From NCBI GenBank assembly GCA_947624675.1, contig CANQLI010000009.1, forward strand, positions 1 through 64,000: a DNA stretch of 64,000 nucleotides, in the 5' to 3' direction. The position numbers were made by a program, and so were the translations under genes. How positions within the stretch are numbered: position 1 is the stretch's first letter; every line of letters starts with the position of its first letter. This DNA comes from an uncultured Clostridia bacterium (lineage in GTDB: Bacteria > Bacillota > Clostridia > Oscillospirales > Ruminococcaceae). Shown piece by piece: positions 33,654 to 40,420 of this stretch. Under the pieces are notes generated by a model that was given only the letters and a program-made list of their open reading frames with translations, was not told the origin of the DNA and searched no databases.

Positions 33654-33669
33654 GAAAAAAATTAAAAAA
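33654..33669 (+). repeat. 16-bp direct repeat flanking the phage, left copy
   Basis: GAAAAAAATTAAAAAA, identical to 40405-40420. It could be an attachment core, or chance because it is low-complexity A/T. Confidence 0.4.
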
Positions 33670-33682
33670 GGTAAGTTTTATA

Positions 33683-33705
33683 ATTAAATGCGAAAGGAAA
33701 AAGCG
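33683..33705 (+). repeat. Left terminal inverted repeat of the phage
   Basis: Matches the reverse complement of 40370-40392 at 19 of 23 positions, including the outer 13 bp ATTAAATGCGAAA and the inner AGCG. Outer AT may be a target duplication rather than part of the repeat. Confidence 0.75.
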
Positions 33706-33726
33706 TAGCAAAACGCAGCTATGCTT
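33701..33726 (+). repeat. Short hairpin in phage intergenic region
   Basis: AAGCGTAGC and GCTATGCTT (one mismatch) around an 8-nt loop, just inside the left terminal repeat. Confidence 0.45.
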
Positions 33727-33751
33727 AATCGCTTAATTGCCCCTTGCGCAT

Positions 33752-33811
33752 AAAAATACTGATGTCAAGGGCGGCGAAGCCGTATATTTTACCCTTTACA
33801 TCAGTATTTTT
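33752..33811. promoter_or_regulatory. Long nested hairpin: phage packaging signal or bidirectional terminator
   Basis: A 20-bp stem (33752-33771 with 33792-33811, 19 of 20 paired) carries an inner hairpin CGGC-GAA-GCCG at 33772-33782. T-runs occur at the 3' end on both strands, so it can terminate transcription of the minus-strand gene at 33821 and of readthrough from the plus strand. In filamentous phages one large intergenic hairpin serves as the ssDNA packaging signal, and this is the largest hairpin in the element. Confidence 0.6.
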
Positions 33812-33820
33812 TATGTGCTA

Positions 33821-34390
33821 TTATTCAGATTTGCGATTAAGGATATTTTGGATTTTGTTTTCTAATTCATCTGAGTTTCTTACTCTCAGAAGTTTATATC
33901 CTGTATTTTGTAGAATTTCATTTTTGAATTTGTCGCTTTCAATTGCTTTCTTTGTATTGTGTGTGTAATCGTCTAGCTCAATTATGAGTTTTACTTCCAA
34001 ATCTTCTCTGCTTGCTAGAGCAAAATCAATATGTTTTGATTTAATTCTTCCAAATAGTCTATAATATTCGCTGTTGTCTTTATAGTTTTGGATTTTTATT
34101 AAATCGGCAAGCCTTACTTTTGATAGTACAACAAGATTAAGCTTCTCAGATATTACATTTAAGCTTTTATAAAAAATCAGTTCTTTTTTGCTTAATAAGC
34201 TTTTTCTTATGTATTTGCTTTCATAATCTCGTTTTGATTCGATTTCCTCAACTTGTTGATAATTATAAGATTTATATACTTGTTTATCGTTTTCTCTTCT
34301 TCTAACAATCAGAGTCTTTTCAATTTTAATTAAAATTAAAATTAGTAGAACTATTACTATAACCGATAATACGATTTCCAATTTCAACAC
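33821..34390 (-). CDS. Membrane-anchored DUF2726-like (restriction-endonuclease-fold) protein
   Basis: 189 residues (GTG 34390 or TTG 34387 start). N-terminal TM helix (IVLSVIVIVLLILILIKIEKTL), then a soluble domain with VVLSKVRLADLIKI, GRIKSKHIDFALASREDLEV, LIIELDDYTHNTKKAIESDKFKN and GYKLLRVRN. The D..(I/V)IELDD.(T/S)H...D..K pattern matches DUF2726 as I know it, a PD-(D/E)XK-like fold. It is the only phage gene on the minus strand, opposite the structural operon, like an accessory cargo gene. Possible roles in superinfection exclusion or DNA processing are guesses. Confidence 0.7.
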   Translation of the reverse strand: MLKLEIVLSVIVIVLLILILIKIEKTLIVRRRENDKQVYKSYNYQQVEEIESKRDYESKYIRKSLLSKKELIFYKSLNVISEKLNLVVLSKVRLADLIKIQNYKDNSEYYRLFGRIKSKHIDFALASREDLEVKLIIELDDYTHNTKKAIESDKFKNEILQNTGYKLLRVRNSDELENKIQNILNRKSE

Positions 34391-34420
34391 CCCATATGAT
34401 TATATAATTTTGCTATTTTT

Positions 34421-34450
34421 TTGTCAACATCAGCTTATGCTGATTTAATA
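34421..34450 (+). promoter_or_regulatory. Candidate phage early promoter with palindrome
   Basis: TTGTCA (34421-34426), 18-bp spacer, TTAATA (34445-34450). The spacer contains the palindrome ATCAGC-TTAT-GCTGAT (34429-34444), a possible repressor site. It lies in the divergent region between the DUF2726-like gene and the structural operon. Confidence 0.45.
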
Positions 34451-34478
34451 AATTTAATTAATTAAAGGAGTTTTAAGA

Positions 34479-34754
34479 ATGATTAAAGTTGTAGGTTTCG
34501 AAACTAAAAAAGGTAGTTTCACTAATCAGCAGACAGGCGAGGTTATTGATTATGATAATCTTATAATTTATTATGTTAGTGATCTAAAAAAAGAAGTTGA
34601 GGGCTTATATTCATCAGAAATTAAAATTAAAAGTAAAGACATTAAAAAGATTCTCGGCGATTTAAATCCTTCTGATTTGCTTGATGAGGAAATAATTCCT
34701 TATTATATTCCTGTTGGTAATAGTGTGGTTCTTTATCACATTGACCTTGCATAA
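34479..34754 (+). CDS. Putative phage ssDNA-binding protein (gpV-like)
   Basis: 91 residues, AAAGGAG ahead of ATG 34479. Short beta-rich sequence starting VVGFETKKGSFTNQQTGEVIDYDNLIIYY and ending PVGNSVVLYHIDLA. Filamentous phages encode a small ssDNA-binding protein at this position, first in the operon before the coat genes, and the size and composition fit; the call is positional, without a diagnostic motif. Confidence 0.5.
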   Translation: MIKVVGFETKKGSFTNQQTGEVIDYDNLIIYYVSDLKKEVEGLYSSEIKIKSKDIKKILGDLNPSDLLDEEIIPYYIPVGNSVVLYHIDLA

Positions 34755-34766
34755 TTGGTGTAAAAA

Positions 34767-34913
34767 ATGGATCCGGAAATAATTGATATTTTAAATAAGA
34801 TATACATATTACTTATTAATTTCTTTGGATTTTTTAAGGGCGTATTTTACATAGTTATTATTTTTGTTATATCTTATTTTCTTGGCAAATTTATTTATAA
34901 TTTAATCTGGTAA
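34767..34913 (+). CDS. 48-residue hydrophobic phage protein (minor coat pVII/pIX-like)
   Basis: ATG 34767 to TAA 34911-34913. Sequence begins MDPEIIDILNKIYILL and has a single long hydrophobic helix (FFKGVFYIVIIFVISYF) ending GKFIYNLIW. Weak ribosome binding site (GGTG), 12 bp after the preceding stop. Small one-helix proteins between the ssDNA-binding and major coat genes are the cap proteins in Ff phages. Easily missed because of its length. Confidence 0.6.
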   Translation: MDPEIIDILNKIYILLINFFGFFKGVFYIVIIFVISYFLGKFIYNLIW

Positions 34914-34967
34914 AAATGCATTTTTATAAAGTAGTTTTTTGTTTCATTGAGAAAGGAGTTTTTTATT

Positions 34968-35147
34968 ATGGTAAGTTTACTTGCGGTAGAAGGCGCTGAC
35001 ACCTCTGCAATAACTACAGCTATTACTTCTATGGTAATAGAGGTAAAAGATGTTATTTCTGCAGTTCTGCCTATAGTGCTTCCTGTGGCTGCTATTATAG
35101 TAGGTGCTACTATTGCAGTTCGTCTATTTAAGAAATTTTCTAAGTAG
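34968..35147 (+). CDS. Major coat protein (pVIII-like)
   Basis: 59 residues from ATG 34968, which has GAAAGGAG at 34951-34958; a TTG at 34947 would overlap the ribosome binding site. Acidic/amphipathic N-terminus VEGADTSAITTAITSM, hydrophobic middle and basic end IIVGATIAVRLFKKFSK. This end is very close to that of phage fd coat protein (VIVGATIGIKLFKKF, recalled). No signal peptide is evident, unlike fd but as in Pf3; membrane insertion is probably signal-less. Confidence 0.88.
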   Translation: MVSLLAVEGADTSAITTAITSMVIEVKDVISAVLPIVLPVAAIIVGATIAVRLFKKFSK

Positions 35148-35158
35148 GAGGCAGTTAA

Positions 35159-35182
35159 TGTGCCTGAGTGATGTCAGGCACA
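35159..35182 (+). terminator. Hairpin between major coat and adsorption genes
   Basis: TGTGCCTGA and TCAGGCACA form a perfect 9-bp stem with a GTGATG loop, 11 bp after the coat stop. No T-run, so it may be an attenuator or mRNA-stabilising stem, comparable in position to the terminator after gene VIII of Ff phages. Confidence 0.55.
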
Positions 35183-35215
35183 TAATAGTGTCCCCTATTA
35201 AAAAGGAGCTTGTCT

Positions 35216-35587
35216 ATGTTTAAGAAGTTATTAATAATTCAGTCTGTGTTAATTATTTTATTTCTTAATATGACAAGTTCCTTTGTTTATGCCGGATTTT
35301 TTTCTGACCATATTGAAACAAATACTGTGCCTTCCCCGACAGTCCCTTCGGATTGTAAGCTTCTCGCCGATGACGAGCTCAACACAGATTTTAACGAAGA
35401 GTACTACAATGACAATCACCTTGTCGAAGATGAAACCGAAGCAGGGGAGTTCTTCGACGAAAAGGCAGATTTTCATACTACTGATGATTTATCAGGATTG
35501 CCGAATTCGTCAAAATCAACAAACGATGAGCTGAGATCTCCGGCATCGAATATAGCAAATTCAACAAAAACAAAATTCATAATGTGA
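35216..35587 (+). CDS. Phage adsorption-type protein, N-terminal part with signal peptide, ended by in-frame UGA
   Basis: ATG 35216 with AAAAGGAG at 35201-35208; 123 residues. Signal peptide MFKKLLIIQSVLIILFLNMT with cleavage near FVYA, then an acidic, disordered domain (VPSPTVPSDCKLLADDELN...). The frame stops at TGA 35585-35587 and continues open in the same phase into the next gene, so the two look like one pIII-like protein. The acidic segment has a higher GC than its surroundings and may be a recombined receptor-binding region. Confidence 0.65.
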   Translation: MFKKLLIIQSVLIILFLNMTSSFVYAGFFSDHIETNTVPSPTVPSDCKLLADDELNTDFNEEYYNDNHLVEDETEAGEFFDEKADFHTTDDLSGLPNSSKSTNDELRSPASNIANSTKTKFIM

Positions 35588-35632
35588 GATGACAGCCAGC
35601 CTCAGGATCAGCAGTCTGATGAATACGGAATA

Positions 35633-37225
35633 ATGCCTATTGCGGATATTGATGATTATAATTTTGTACCGCCATTTATTACAAAATTTACTACTAATCA
35701 TAACCGACATTTTGTTATTGATAATCCTAATAATTTAGTAGATGTTTTAAAGGGTAAGTTTGGAATTCAATATGACATTTCTTATTCGTTGTATTCACAT
35801 TACATTACTTCTAATAACGCAATTGCATTGCCATCTTATGATGATTTTATTAACCATTCTATTATTTGTGTTGATAATTTAGTCGTATATAAACATACCG
35901 TTTATTTTGGTGGTAATCATGAAGAATATGGATTTATTTTTGCTGATTCTGATATACAATTTAATTCTAAAGATAATACTTGTAATGTTTATGATATGTC
36001 TAATGTAATTTACTGTCAATGTTTTGGTGGTTACGGCTCTAAAGGTCAATTTGTCGGATATAGTCTTGATAGTTTATATGGCAAATTAGATGGCGTTGGT
36101 GCTTTTGCATCTGGTTCTTTTTTTGTAGATTTTACACCAGTTTACATAGGAAAAAATATTGATGTTTATATTGATGACGAAAAACAGGAAAAACATAATG
36201 AAGATGGCACTCTCGTTGGCGATATTTACGGTGAATTCGGATTTAAAGAAGACAGCAAAATCTTGACCTATAAGGCTTGGTCTGACAAAGAGTTAGATAA
36301 GACATATGATGTGCATTTATGGGCTATGGATAGTCCGTCCGTCCCTGCTAAAATTAACGGTAACGAAGATTTTCCTATTCGTGATTTAGATAATTATGAT
36401 AGTCACGGATTGCAACTCAGTGCCAGTAAGTCAAGCGTTCAAGCATCATACGAGCTCGAAGCTGTGTACTACTATTTACACCAAATGCAAGGTTATGATG
36501 ATAGCTTGGAAAGCGTTGACGGTTATGAATTTGAAAAATTTGAGAGCCGGGAAAATTTGAGTTTTGCTATTGTGTATAGAGAAAAGGGAAGTTCCGGAGA
36601 TTGGAAAGTTTGTAAAAGCTATAAATATAATTATCGTGATCTGATTGAAAATGTTATGGGCGGTTTTTCTGTAAAAAAAGATTATGTAGATTTTCCTTCT
36701 CTAAGTGATTATGTTGAAGGATTTCCTAGCATTGAAGATTTTCTTCCGGATGATGAAGATCCTGGTATATTAGATTGGATATTAGCGTTTATAAAATGGA
36801 TTGCAAATTGTGTTTATATTGGTTTTAAAAATTTTATTGGTCTTTTTCAATGGTTGTTTGATTGTATTCCTATATTGTGGGAGAATTTAACTATCGCATT
36901 ATACAACTTGGTTTGCGATCTGAAGGAGCTCGCATTGTACTTTGTTTATCCTAAAACTGAATCTATTTATGCAATGGCTAATGAACGCTGTCCCGCTTTT
37001 AAACAACTTTATTCTGCAGTATCACAAGATGCTTCTTCATCTTCTTTGCCAAGCTTTATCTTTTTTGGTACAAAATTTTCGTTAAATCTTAATGATTACG
37101 GTATTGATTTTTCATATGTTAAATCAATCAGTCAAGTTATAATTTGGATTTTTTATTTTTGGTGTATATGGTGTATTATTCGTAAGGTTATTGGATTAGC
37201 GCCCTCTGACGGAGGTGATTCTTAA
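35633..37225 (+). CDS. Phage adsorption/minor coat protein, main part
   Basis: 530 residues from ATG 35633 to TAA 37223-37225; in phase with the frame at 35216 and open upstream to the TGA at 35585. No signal peptide of its own. Beta-rich body (residues ~1-350), then a hydrophobic C-terminus with several helices (ILDWILAFIKWIANCVYIGF; FIGLFQWLFDCIPILWENL; VIIWIFYFWCIWCIIRKVIG). A large exported protein with a C-terminal membrane anchor, placed between the major coat and pVI/Zot genes, corresponds to pIII. Weak ribosome binding site (GGA) before ATG 35633. Confidence 0.7.
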   Translation: MPIADIDDYNFVPPFITKFTTNHNRHFVIDNPNNLVDVLKGKFGIQYDISYSLYSHYITSNNAIALPSYDDFINHSIICVDNLVVYKHTVYFGGNHEEYGFIFADSDIQFNSKDNTCNVYDMSNVIYCQCFGGYGSKGQFVGYSLDSLYGKLDGVGAFASGSFFVDFTPVYIGKNIDVYIDDEKQEKHNEDGTLVGDIYGEFGFKEDSKILTYKAWSDKELDKTYDVHLWAMDSPSVPAKINGNEDFPIRDLDNYDSHGLQLSASKSSVQASYELEAVYYYLHQMQGYDDSLESVDGYEFEKFESRENLSFAIVYREKGSSGDWKVCKSYKYNYRDLIENVMGGFSVKKDYVDFPSLSDYVEGFPSIEDFLPDDEDPGILDWILAFIKWIANCVYIGFKNFIGLFQWLFDCIPILWENLTIALYNLVCDLKELALYFVYPKTESIYAMANERCPAFKQLYSAVSQDASSSSLPSFIFFGTKFSLNLNDYGIDFSYVKSISQVIIWIFYFWCIWCIIRKVIGLAPSDGGDS

Positions 37226-37449
37226 TGCTTTGGTGTTGGCTTGCAAAAGCGTTGCTTTCTTTTGAATTTTTTGATAATCTTGAATTTTCTGACTCTGTTT
37301 ATTCTGCCATTAGCAATGTAAAAAGTATAATAAATTCATTTTCAATGATATTTGATTTTGGTTTGTTTTTTAACCTTTTCTTATCAGTACTATTTTATAG
37401 CTTTTTAGGTTTAGTTCTTAGATTAGTATTAAAATTATTTGGTCGTTAA
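37225..37449 (+). CDS. pVI-like hydrophobic minor coat protein
   Basis: 74 residues; ATG overlaps the TAA of the preceding gene (TAATG) and has GGAGGTGA at 37211-37218. Two hydrophobic segments (IINSFSMIFDFGLFFNLF and LSVLFYSFLGLVLRLVLKLF). Position between the pIII-like and Zot genes is that of gene VI. Confidence 0.65.
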   Translation: MLWCWLAKALLSFEFFDNLEFSDSVYSAISNVKSIINSFSMIFDFGLFFNLFLSVLFYSFLGLVLRLVLKLFGR

Positions 37450-37461
37450 AGGAGATTAACT

Positions 37462-38202
37462 ATGTTTTATTTTGTTGTTTTTTTGTTAGTTATTTTTATC
37501 TTAAACATCTATTTTGGTGGTTGTTTTATCAAAGGGTATTTATTATTCCTGAAGGATACCGTTAAACAGTTCTATCATCGGCGAATTAAAAAAGAAATTA
37601 AGCCGTTTGATTATTACGGAGTTTATCTGTTTTGCGGCCGTGTCGGGTGCGGTAAAACTATCAGTATGATCGAAAAGGCGCAGCGTATAAAGCAACGCTA
37701 TCCTAAAGTTAAGATTTATTCTAATTTTGATTGCGACATTTCCGACGGCAAAATTGAATACTGGGAGCAGTTGCGTGATCTGACCAATCGTGACGAAATG
37801 GGCAATGAGCAGGGTATATTATTTCTTTTCGATGAAATTCATTTAACATTTGCTTCTGAAGCTTGGCAGGCAGCCCCAGCTGATTTATTGTCATACATAT
37901 CATTGCAACGGAAAAATAAGAAATGTATTTTTGCATCGTCCCAGGTCTGGACCAGAGTAAACAAAGTAATCAGGGAGCAAGCTGATTTTGTTATTGAATG
38001 TAAGTCATTTTTTAAATCTCGTATTGTTAGAAACAAATATTATTTGCAGGAAGATTATGCTGTTAATGGTGAGCAAAAAGATTCCGGAATGCGTAAACGA
38101 GATGTAAGGTTAAAATATTGTTTTGTTGCAACAGACAAGTTAAGAAGTCTTTACGACACAAATGAAATAGTAAGGGGACTGAAGCAGCGTAAAACGCGCT
38201 AA
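37462..38202 (+). CDS. Zot/pI-type filamentous phage assembly ATPase
   Basis: 246 residues, AAAGGAGAT ahead of ATG 37462. An N-terminal TM helix (residues 2-20) is followed by a P-loop ATPase: Walker A GRVGCGKT (59-66), Walker B ILFLFDEIH (119-127) and SLQRKNKKCIFASSQVW, the Zot signature region. It drives extrusion of the virion through the membrane. The TM lies before rather than after the ATPase, and there is no C-terminal periplasmic domain, which suits a host with one membrane. The stop codon is inside a hairpin (38192-38221). Confidence 0.9.
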   Translation: MFYFVVFLLVIFILNIYFGGCFIKGYLLFLKDTVKQFYHRRIKKEIKPFDYYGVYLFCGRVGCGKTISMIEKAQRIKQRYPKVKIYSNFDCDISDGKIEYWEQLRDLTNRDEMGNEQGILFLFDEIHLTFASEAWQAAPADLLSYISLQRKNKKCIFASSQVWTRVNKVIREQADFVIECKSFFKSRIVRNKYYLQEDYAVNGEQKDSGMRKRDVRLKYCFVATDKLRSLYDTNEIVRGLKQRKTR

Positions 38203-38221
38203 GCCGAAGGCTTGCGCGTTT
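38192..38221 (+). terminator. GC-rich hairpin at the end of zot
   Basis: AAACGCGCTAAGCC and GGCTTGCGCGTTT pair with one bulge around GAA, overlapping the zot stop codon. It may terminate structural-gene transcription or be part of the adjoining replication origin. Confidence 0.6.
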
Positions 38222-38230
38222 CGCTGTTTA

Positions 38231-38254
38231 ACCCCCCGTAGCTAACAGGGGGGT
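38231..38254 (+). promoter_or_regulatory. Putative rolling-circle nic site (Tn916/ICEBs1 oriT-like)
   Basis: ACCCCCC (38231-38237), centre GTAGCTAACA, and GGGGGGT (38248-38254) form a perfect 7-bp inverted repeat, 23 bp before rep. From memory the ICEBs1 nic region has the same arms with centre CACGCTAACA, and Tn916 has centre GTATCTAACA with one change in the right arm. Thus 21-22 of 24 positions agree. In those elements a Rep_trans-family relaxase nicks this site, and the gene next door here encodes a Rep_trans protein, so this is very likely the phage double-strand origin. Confidence 0.85.
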
Positions 38255-38277
38255 TAGAAATACACGAGGTATTTAAA

Positions 38278-39228
38278 ATGCAAGACAAAGATAATATTTT
38301 AATTGTGGACTGGTTCAGCTTCACAACTAAAATTTTTGTTGAATGTACTGATTTTGTATATAGCATTGCCGATATTATTGACCTTTTAGGTCTTACGGAA
38401 TCTAATTTAAAATGGCAAAATATATACGGTATGCACGGCTACAAAGACAGATATTATTTTGATGGCATATCAATACACTATAATTCTACTAATCGTGATT
38501 TATGGGTTGAGATGTCCGGTGCCGGATGCAGGACTTTTGAAACATACAGTAAATTTGATTTTTATGATATTTTCGATATTATTAAGTCTGACCTTAAGCG
38601 TTTTCATATCACACGACTTGATATAGCATTGGACGATAGAACTGATATGCTTAATCTTGAGACCATTGAGAGAGAAACTAGTCTTAAAAACTATCGTTCA
38701 CGATTTCGTGATATACGACTTGAAAAATCATTTACTTCAAATGCGTTTACTTTTTATTACGGCTCTATGTCGTCTGACATAATGTTCAGGATATATAATA
38801 AAGCTGTGGAGCGTAACAGGGAAGATGAGGGAAGCTGGGTAAGATTTGAAATACAGATGCGCAATGAAAGAGCATTAAGTTTCTTACAGCAGCTTACAAC
38901 AACTAATATCGGCGAAATATTCTTTGGTGTAATAAATCACTACATATCATATCTTAAGCCTAGCTCTGACAGTAATAAAGCCAGATGGGCGTTAGCTGAC
39001 TGGTGGTCTGATTTTCTTCAGTTTTCTAACATTACAAGGCTTACACCTTGTGAAAAGGAATACAACTTTTTAAACTTACAAAACTATGTTATAAATCAAT
39101 CCGGTGGAGCGGTACAAACATATATAAAACTATGTGGTGAAGATCAGCTTATTGATGATCTTAAAAATAGGTCTGCTCGTCTTAATCCTAAATATAAAAC
39201 ATTACTTGACGAATTACAAACTGAATAA
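38278..39228 (+). CDS. rep: Rep_trans-family rolling-circle replication initiator
   Basis: 316 residues. Motifs: DWFSFT (11-16), EMSGAGCRTFE (78-88), HITRLDIALDD (110-120) and FRIYNKAVER...SWVRFEIQMR (170-195) with the likely catalytic Tyr173. This layout is that of the Rep_trans (replication initiation factor) family that includes pT181 RepC, CTX phage RstA, Tn916 Orf20 and ICEBs1 NicK. It nicks the origin (see 38231-38254) to start rolling-circle synthesis of phage ssDNA. It is not the HUH type typical of Ff phages. Confidence 0.9.
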   Translation: MQDKDNILIVDWFSFTTKIFVECTDFVYSIADIIDLLGLTESNLKWQNIYGMHGYKDRYYFDGISIHYNSTNRDLWVEMSGAGCRTFETYSKFDFYDIFDIIKSDLKRFHITRLDIALDDRTDMLNLETIERETSLKNYRSRFRDIRLEKSFTSNAFTFYYGSMSSDIMFRIYNKAVERNREDEGSWVRFEIQMRNERALSFLQQLTTTNIGEIFFGVINHYISYLKPSSDSNKARWALADWWSDFLQFSNITRLTPCEKEYNFLNLQNYVINQSGGAVQTYIKLCGEDQLIDDLKNRSARLNPKYKTLLDELQTE

Positions 39229-39260
39229 CTTGTGTTAAAATAATATATGGGGGCGATATT

Positions 39261-40289
39261 ATGCGACACTTTAAACATTTATCATTTACTCAACGGCTAC
39301 AGCTTGAAGCATATCTTAAGGCAAAATTACCTAAGAATGAAATAGCTAATCTATTAGGCGTACATATATCTACAGTTTACAGAGAAATCAAGAGAGGTTT
39401 GTATACTCGCTTAAACGGTGATACATACGAATATGAGGACTCTTACAGTCCCGATATTTCTGAAAAGAAGTATCGGGATAATTTGTCTTGTAAGGGCTCA
39501 GATTTAAAAATCAATTCAGATTATCTCTTTGCTTACTTTATTGAAGATAAAATAATAAATGAAAGATTCTCACCTGCTGCAGCATTGGCAGCTTCCTGTT
39601 CCGAAGGCTTTAATACATCTATTTGTGTTTCTACATTATACAGTTACATTGAAAAAGGTGTTTTCCTCAATCTTACAAATAAAAATTTACCTGTTAAACA
39701 TCATAGAAAGAAACACAATAAAACTAATAATACATCTCGCCCTCCAAGAGGCACTAGCATAGAAAAACGCCCTGAAGATGTATCAGAGCGTAATACATTC
39801 GGTCATTGGGAAATGGATTGTGTTATCGGCAAAAAAGAAACACATAAAACATTATTAGTACTTACCGAGCGATACACAAGACAAGAGATCGTCAAAATTA
39901 TGAAAGATAAGACTGCTAGTAGCGTTATAAAAGCCATTGATAGAATAGAACGGCAGTTAGGCAGCAGAAAGTTTAAGAGTGTGTTTAGATCTATCACAGT
40001 TGATAACGGTACCGAGTTTTCGGATTTTAAAGGTATTGAGCGTTCTGTCCCTACCAAATCAAAACGAACACAATTATATTACTGTCACCCGTATAGCAGT
40101 TACGAACGTGGAAGCAATGAAAATCAAAATAAGCTTATCCGGAGGCACTATCCAAAGGGAACAAGTTTTGACGGTTTAAAGCAATCTGATATTGATAAGT
40201 TGCAAGATTGGATAAATAACTATCCTAGGAAAATGTTCGGGTGGTGTAATTCAAACGATATTTTTTACGCTTGTATCAATAGTATTTAG
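39261..40289 (+). CDS. IS30-family DDE transposase acting as phage integrase
   Basis: 342 residues. N-terminal HTH (LSFTQRLQLEAYLKAKLPKNEIANLLGVHISTVYREIKRG), then a DDE catalytic domain: HWEMDCVIG (D186), ITVDNGTEFSD (D248) and YERGSNENQNKLIRRHYPKG (E287). It follows rep by 32 bp on the same strand and is intact. No separate IS ends surround it; the matching inverted repeats are at the ends of the whole phage, so it appears to mobilise the phage genome. IS30-type transposases are also known in Spiroplasma filamentous phages. Confidence 0.93.
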   Translation: MRHFKHLSFTQRLQLEAYLKAKLPKNEIANLLGVHISTVYREIKRGLYTRLNGDTYEYEDSYSPDISEKKYRDNLSCKGSDLKINSDYLFAYFIEDKIINERFSPAAALAASCSEGFNTSICVSTLYSYIEKGVFLNLTNKNLPVKHHRKKHNKTNNTSRPPRGTSIEKRPEDVSERNTFGHWEMDCVIGKKETHKTLLVLTERYTRQEIVKIMKDKTASSVIKAIDRIERQLGSRKFKSVFRSITVDNGTEFSDFKGIERSVPTKSKRTQLYYCHPYSSYERGSNENQNKLIRRHYPKGTSFDGLKQSDIDKLQDWINNYPRKMFGWCNSNDIFYACINSI

Positions 40290-40369
40290 TAATTTTGCAC
40301 AAATATTTACGCTGAAGGATTGCTGATCTGCAGATACAAAATATACATATTGCACAAAATTTATTTTTC

Positions 40370-40392
40370 CGCTATATTTTTTCGCATTTAAT
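40370..40392 (-). repeat. Right terminal inverted repeat of the phage
   Basis: Reverse complement matches 33683-33705 at 19 of 23 positions. It lies 80 bp after the transposase stop. The gap 40290-40369 holds no gene; it contains TTGCACAAA twice (40295, 40350), of unknown meaning. Confidence 0.75.
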
Positions 40393-40404
40393 ATTGACAT
40401 TTAC

Positions 40405-40420
40405 GAAAAAAATTAAAAAA
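40405..40420 (+). repeat. 16-bp direct repeat flanking the phage, right copy
   Basis: GAAAAAAATTAAAAAA, identical to 33654-33669; abuts the ireB terminator stem. Confidence 0.4.

Follow-up and report, generated by a model that had tools for sequence, protein, structure and literature searches.

A nic hairpin like those of Tn916- and ICEBs1-type elements as the probable rolling-circle origin of a transposing inovirus in an uncultured Clostridia bacterium

Introduction

Why would an integrated filamentous phage carry, just ahead of its replication gene, a hairpin nearly identical to the sites at which conjugative elements are nicked for transfer? The likeness may come from a shared type of origin, or it may mean that phage and integrative and conjugative elements (ICEs) act on each other's DNA. 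The question was raised by a locus in the window, which here means the whole 64,000-nucleotide stretch of contig CANQLI010000009.1 that was analysed. Many inoviruses use initiators of the Rep_trans family, as reported in a passage of PMC6668415. A literature search, conducted mostly outside subscription journals and preprints, found no comparison of inovirus origins with ICE nic sites. Loci and genomes are referred to below by their L and G numbers.

Genomic features of the prophage

The whole prophage was located on the plus strand at 33670..40405 (6736 bp), with imperfect terminal inverted repeats, between identical 15-bp target duplications at 33655..33669 (left, plus strand) and 40406..40420 (right, plus strand). 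Chromosomal homology to relatives ended no more than a few bases from the left end and resumed near the right end. The near-copy L265 in the same-genus genome G402 (Rep 96%, transposase 96%) occupied another insertion site, where the flanking perfect 15-bp duplication was AAAATCTACAAACAC and not the AAAAAAATTAAAAAA of the window. Because of this flank homology and the independent L265 insertion, 33670-40405 was taken as a mobile prophage with transposition-type duplications and inverted ends, and its own transposase would carry out the transposition. Another near-copy, L264 in the same-genus genome G283, had a Rep at 95%, a transposase read in two frames and changed origin arms; its zot was 98% identical to that of the window, beside a pIII piece at 65% and a 74-aa gene at 46%. 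L264 appeared to be a mosaic, possibly decaying prophage copy, with pIII-like and 74-aa genes far less window-like than its zot and rep.

The first gene of the element, on the minus strand (33821..34390), was a DUF2726 nuclease-like gene (PF10881, E 5.1e-23), with 6 matches (E <= 2.4e-11) in other fetched loci, all of related inovirus type. All further genes were on the plus strand. A 91-aa beta-rich protein (34479..34754; model pLDDT 87.7) occupied the gene V position and was possibly ssDNA-binding; Foldseek gave no match at E <= 0.001, its weak matches including gene V protein, and a HelP-like OB fold was dropped for this reason. It was followed by a 48-aa protein (34767..34913) and a major coat protein of Gp8 type (34947..35147; PF19199, E 1.4e-7; phrog_1646), drawn from a TTG, with an ATG at 34968. 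A 125-aa ORF (35210..35587) and a 530-aa ORF (35633..37225), the latter named from its size and place, formed the first and the larger part of a pIII-like gene. A 74-aa protein (37225..37449) stood in the position of a minor coat gene. The zot-like morphogenesis ATPase (246 aa, 37462..38202) matched PF05707 (E 5.8e-5, 23.1 bits against a cut-off of 20.3) and also a home-built Zot profile whose seeds include the same protein. After the origin came rep, encoding a 316-aa Rep_trans initiator with Rol_Rep_N and Rep_trans domains (38278..39228), and then an IS30-family transposase, the predicted integration enzyme (39261..40289; phrog_4646, E 1.8e-125). No known RNA family was found in the element at gathering score.

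An in-frame stop was observed to split the pIII-like gene (35210-37225) in the window copy. In L265 and L103 the gene was intact, a single ORF of 645 or 647 aa. Because the gene is interrupted, infectious phage may not form from the window copy.

The coat, pIII-like and zot-like genes, the origin, the Rep_trans gene and the transposase gene thus made a single same-strand run. The Zot/gpI-like ATPase, small major coat protein and Rep by which Inoviridae are recognised were present in one module, and the genes therefore support a filamentous phage. The gene order agreed with GenBank records: zot precedes rep in circular inovirus records (L030, L031), and a transposase follows rep in two of them, L257 and L258, with one ORF between in L258. 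A sequence-only reading had called the element a filamentous phage and had placed a perfect 7-bp inverted repeat 23 bp before its Rep_trans gene; the phage module bore out the first statement, and the repeat was exact in sequence and coordinates.

The transposase scored 234 bits in the IS30 model NF033563 (cut-off 80). IS30 target duplications are usually 2-3 bp, but the two insertions had perfect 15-bp duplications. These differed in sequence between the two independent insertions and were unusually long for an IS30-type enzyme. The Spiroplasma phage SpV1-R8A2B, which we take to belong to the genus Vespertiliovirus, is also filamentous and has an IS30-family transposase (26% identity). According to a passage of PMC6668415, Vespertiliovirus lacks Rep, for which IS3/IS30 transposases stand in, and its replication proceeds by transposition, whereas the window phage has both a Rep and an origin. 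The Faecalibacterium phage FP_Lagaffe has an IS30-type integrase 52% identical to the transposase, and direct repeats flanking its prophage are reported in part of PMC5883640, but it is a large tailed phage.

The nic hairpin and its predicted nick

The predicted double-strand origin was a 24-bp repeat on the plus strand at 38231..38254, between the zot-like gene and rep, which read ACCCCCC-GTAGCTAACA-GGGGGGT, with CTAACA in the loop. The rep ATG at 38278 stood 23 bp past its end. With the flanking TA/TA the arms reached 9 bp (TAACCCCCC/GGGGGGTTA, 38229-38256), and these 28 nt as single-stranded DNA folded at -9.8 kcal/mol (z -3.75), a value bettered by none of 200 shuffles. When up to three mismatches to ACCCCCCNNNNCTAACAGGGGGGT were allowed, the window held a single match and 100 dinucleotide shuffles held none. 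The arms alone, at up to two mismatches, also gave one match in the window (expected mean 0.01; 1 of 100 shuffles with a match), and the exact pattern occurred once in the whole 2.08-Mb source genome. A second hairpin, variable in sequence, was found just upstream on the same strand (38186..38225).

The GC-rich hairpin found here adjoins an initiator gene and has CT'AA in its loop. A passage of PMC9371924 gives CT'AA within a GC-rich hairpin as the ICEBs1 nic site and calls it identical to the double-strand origin (dso) of Rep_trans replicons. With the cut placed as in that publication, the nick is predicted between 38243 and 38244 (CT'AA). The window site is well formed and most likely a replication origin of Rep_trans type in a transposing inovirus.

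Comparison of the phage Rep and its origin with ICE and plasmid systems

The phage Rep matched Rep_trans (PF02486, E 2.3e-37) as well as Rol_Rep_N, and the mean pLDDT of its predicted model was 87. Its profile found 4cij ('GST REP', E 2.3e-55) as the best relative among solved structures, which we take to be RepSTK1, the Rep of plasmid pSTK1. All five active-site motifs published for Rep_trans (N' D, RxD, T/SxY/ExG, YxKxxE and W/LxRxE, as given in part of PMC5714925) were found in it, and Tyr173 is the predicted catalytic residue, with D11, D115 and E191 as predicted acidic residues. The alignment paired Tyr173 with Tyr195 in the NicK-type protein and with Tyr240 in the Orf20-type one; in NicK, Tyr195 is the catalytic tyrosine. 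The Orf20-type protein had an N-terminal HTH in addition to Rol_Rep_N and Rep_trans, while the phage Rep lacked the HTH. In the NCBIfam MobT model the phage Rep scored 93.4 bits, the NicK-type L035 protein 324.5 and the Orf20-type protein 732.5, so that at the cut-off of 600 bits not only the phage Rep but also the NicK-type protein fell below.

Two ICE-type sites were aligned with the window. The region L153 of an Enterococcus faecalis plasmid, annotated in the order YdcP, YdcP, FtsK, MobT, ArdA and called Tn916-type from this gene order, read ACCCCCC-GTATCTAACA-GGGGGGT and differed from the window 24-mer in 1 of 24 bases, which was in the loop. An element in Bacillus inaquosorum (L035), called ICEBs1-type from its core, host and coupling gene and standing in for the ICEBs1 of B. 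subtilis, read ACCCCCC-CACGCTAACA-GGGGGGT and differed in 3 of 24. The arms and CTAACA were common to all three sites. The sequence-only reading had given the ICEBs1 arms and centre as they were found in L035; the single change that it gave for the right arm of Tn916 was absent, the arms of L153 being perfect. Its central proposal, that the phage site and the ICE sites belong to one type of origin, was upheld by the like arms, CTAACA, protein family and five motifs, and the CTAACA core was unchanged in the alignment with the fetched Tn916-type and ICEBs1-type loci.

Tn916 and ICEBs1 (Orf20, NicK) thus share with the phage the ACCCCCC/GGGGGGT arms, the CTAACA loop, an origin just before a Rep_trans gene and the active-site motifs, but the phage has no coupling protein gene, and its Rep, without the HTH and low in the MobT model, falls in another group of the Rep tree. 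For Rep_trans plasmids (pT181 family, pSTK1), passages of PMC9371924 likewise place a CT'AA nick within a GC-rich hairpin, and a pSTK1-type Rep is the best solved relative of the phage Rep; the window site differs in its phage gene context. Since published work already assigns the CT'AA nic of ICEs to the Rep_trans origin type, the phage-ICE likeness is to be expected, most likely because NicK, Orf20 and the phage Rep are one enzyme family that keeps the same cut sequence.

Very probably, then, the hairpin is the site that the phage's own Rep_trans protein would nick to begin rolling-circle replication, and it resembles ICE sites through the shared enzyme family. The phage DNA would circularise, likely aided by the IS30-type transposase, and Rep would bind DNA near the hairpin. 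Tyr173 would attack CT'AA at the predicted nick, and the leading strand, primed by the free 3' end, would be extended through rep and on around the circle. Rep would close the plus (coding) strand displaced in this way, which would then be exported as a filament. Pairing of Rep and origin would probably be set by DNA outside the hairpin together with other parts of Rep. The predicted start of replication in clostridial filamentous phages is thereby connected with a nicking reaction that is well studied.

Conjugative elements in the source genome and its relatives

An unlikely alternative that goes beyond replication is that the phage Rep doubles as a relaxase, an ICE coupling protein taking up the Rep-DNA complex so that the phage genome is conjugated. 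Related elements lend it some ground: ICEBs1 mobilises rolling-circle plasmids through the plasmids' own Rep and ConQ, not through NicK (in part of PMC5714925), Rep_trans proteins of integrative mobilisable elements (IMEs) serve as relaxases with helper ICE machinery (in part of PMC7563843), and the phage Rep has its catalytic motifs in common with the NicK-type protein. The partner element, however, was not seen in the source genome, where the only Rep_trans protein was the phage's own; an ICE in this genome was rejected on that account. Nor was an FtsK-like coupling gene found in the phage with a home-built FtsK profile among the window ORFs of 33-41 kb.

Such elements do reach the genus. 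Any Rep_trans protein was found in 4 of 16 genomes (15 of the genus and G185), three of the four being phages dealt with above. The remaining one, G401, encoded a divergent 384-386-aa Rep_trans protein beside an FtsK-type gene (L267, G401:C14; Pfam 55.7 and 30.4 bits), which reached 20 bits with the MobT model. The 2 kb surrounding its rep start contained no CTAA hairpin. In L267 the FtsK-type gene came before the Rep_trans gene, and the locus is possibly a divergent conjugation-type or mobilisable element.

A wider form of the same idea, which we also consider unlikely, makes the nic hairpin, present in almost identical form in filamentous phages, ICEs, small plasmids and Rep-less elements, a common currency of Firmicutes mobile DNA: the phage Rep would act as relaxase, the phage would leave by conjugation through the machinery of an ICE, and Rep-less elements such as a 2.4-kb tandem unit in G185 would be copied in trans by initiators of phages or ICEs.

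Nicking of the phage origin in trans by an ICE relaxase of NicK or Orf20 type, by which the ICE would replicate or mobilise the phage, is quite improbable. It is suggested by the Tn916-type hairpin, identical but for one loop base, and by the same site in places where no Rep_trans gene lay in the stretch examined, such as small Bacillus plasmid-like contigs. Tn916-type elements were also present in the class: the exact pattern occurred in 10 of 294 genomes of the class sample, and the 9 besides the source genome carried the Tn916 core, at 88-99.96% identity to the Tn916-type region. In the family sample the exact pattern was found in 3 of 396 genomes, none with the Tn916 core. Meetings of phage and ICE are therefore possible, although none was seen in the source genome, which had no second Rep_trans protein. 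No protein of the source genome and 60 relatives was above the MobT cut-off, which the B. subtilis control did not exceed either; the best match apart from these phage Reps reached 53.6 bits, against 324.5 (NicK-type) and 732.5 (Orf20-type), so that no match came near a NicK-like score. Experiments on relatives also weigh against action in trans. In the closest experiment found, an IME from which the gene for its own Rep_trans relaxase had been removed showed no transfer from a donor that held the ICE, according to a passage of PMC7563843. RelSt3, for its part, needs to bind a site 68 nt downstream of nic (part of PMC9371924), and the flanks of phage and ICE sites differ. By the reported parts of PMC7563843 and, for plasmids that ICEBs1 mobilises, of PMC5714925, each element appears to rely on an initiator of its own. 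A functional link between phage and ICE is a testable idea not supported in the source genome.

Flanks of the hairpin and Rep specificity

In the flank of the phage loci, positions +1 and +4 were A (15 of 18 each), +9 was C and +10 was A (17 of 18 each); in ICE loci +1, +4 and +15 were A (15 of 15 each). Comparison of the flanks did not locate a Rep binding site. For the 42 nt upstream of the nic repeat, a fold with z of -2 or below was seen in 10 of the 18 phage loci and in 7 of the 15 ICE loci; the downstream control gave 1 of 18 (the window itself) and 1 of 15, respectively. A second variable hairpin before nic was present in many of the phages and Tn916-type ICEs and absent in the three ICEBs1-type loci. 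The published ICESt3 binding motif TGTCAC, tried as a discriminator of phage and ICE loci, was uninformative (0 of 18 against 1 of 15).

Genome G402 held two phages, L265 and L266 (the latter the same locus as L103), with an identical 24-mer and Reps only 44.9% identical. Identity of the hairpin thus does not need like Reps, and specificity probably lies outside it. Probably something beyond the hairpin keeps Reps and origins matched, or else they are not kept apart at all. The same nic site with Reps 45% alike in one genome makes the choice of origin by Rep or relaxase directly testable; should specificity prove loose, a phage could be copied or moved by a conjugative element, and the reverse.

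Phylogenetic analysis of Rep

The Rep tree was a quick one, with SH-aLRT support only and long branches, built from 73 dereplicated Reps out of 154; 50 rows were phage-labelled, a label that takes in L033, filed as a plasmid. The group with the window's Rep comprised 40 phage-labelled rows (SH-aLRT 96), and all 15 ICE relaxases fell within a separate 19-row group (99). The other 10 of the 50 phage-labelled Reps did not fall in the window's group. Seven of the 10 (L018, L020, L032, L156, L157, L158 and L181) joined the pSTK1 Rep and the ICE relaxases on a weakly drawn branch of 28 rows (94).

A recent swap of origin and rep, with the phage taking them from an ICE or the reverse, is very improbable by this tree. 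The near-identity of the 24-mers would suit it, as would the exchange of other modules among related phages, seen in the unequal identities of L264. Because the two Rep groups are separate, however, no recent phage-ICE exchange is seen for the window phage, and the 24-mer is common to both sides of a deep split. MobT relaxases among the plasmid-search matches were about 28% identical to the phage Rep, and the hairpin flanks differ as well. For the deeper past, the phage Reps outside the window's group, seven of them on the weak branch with ICE relaxases, leave an older exchange among phages, plasmids and ICEs possible.

DNA identity of the window to L103 and L028 was 66-78% in zot, mostly 40-60% in rep and near 50% in the genes before zot; a clean module break exactly at the origin was dropped because of those genes before zot. 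L103 and L028, themselves closely related, differed markedly over the stretch between a point just past the origin and roughly residue 95 of Rep, in its Rol_Rep_N part. Their zot and remaining rep were mostly >90% alike, as if the spacer and N-terminal domain had been exchanged together. General co-exchange of the Rep N-terminal domain and downstream flank was not adopted, as this was the one clear case and other pairs had no consistent trend.

Occurrence of the hairpin beside rep genes

Scanning for the exact pattern yielded 22 viral contig stretches and at least 118 genome contig stretches. By home-built Zot and FtsK profiles, the genome stretches listed were 82 ICE-like, 10 inovirus-like and 26 other, and the viral stretches 9 ICE-like, 12 inovirus-like and 1 other. 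These stretches had been picked for the pattern itself; the fairer sample is one selected only by its Rep protein, namely the closest 32 of 80 loci, on viral contigs. The home-built Zot profile matched 31 of these 32 contigs. A CTAA hairpin was found near the rep start, from 500 bp before to 150 bp after it as drawn, in 23 of 32 (block-shuffled control 1 of 1000), and CTAACA was kept in 21 of the 23. In nine contigs no such hairpin was near rep (L166, L169, L172, L180, L182, L184, L185, L186 and L187), among which L182 and L185 are truncated at the 5' end and L169 has a hairpin elsewhere on the contig. The same scan of 50 phage-like loci, including pattern-chosen loci and nine database records, found it in 34; L058 was missed despite an exact pattern because its ORF was drawn long. 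The hairpin can serve as a simple search key for origins of clostridial filamentous phages.

That the repeat is a transcription terminator or a chance palindrome between zot and rep is hardly credible, since, although it forms a stable hairpin, no T run follows it, the terminator scan did not report the site, none of 100 shuffles held the repeat, and the loop CTAACA is kept as above.

Among the nine related phage or plasmid records, six (L032 and L154-L158) had no such hairpin near rep. The animal-gut inoviruses bajarodino virus 13, 24, 34 and 74 and pRGI00226, filed as a plasmid, have a Rep of the same Rep_trans family. In the bajarodino records zot comes before rep, and a transposase follows rep in 13 and 74. 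A C-run/CTAA/G-run hairpin was found in 24, 34 and pRGI00226, with Reps 36-40% identical to the window's, while the part read of 13 and 74 had no C-run hairpin.

The exact nic pattern was also seen away from such phages. Three small Bacillus plasmid-like contigs (L090, L122 and L149) carried it with no Rep_trans gene in the stretch examined; by eye, two had a Rap phosphatase-like gene and one a Mob-like gene, and their sites are possibly mimics of the ICEBs1 oriT. In G185, where no Rep_trans gene was found, two tandem copies of a 2407-bp unit (L029, G185:C1, about 649.8-654.4 kb) carried the same nic hairpin. The unit also encodes a tyrosine integrase, a small HTH protein that by eye is XRE-like, and a protein of 105 aa. 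It resembles a filamentous-phage satellite that has no Rep; its 105-aa protein had no relatives in the viral contigs. In two assemblies assigned to Phycisphaerales of the Planctomycetota (L094 and L150), the exact nic pattern stood beside a very divergent Rep_trans gene.
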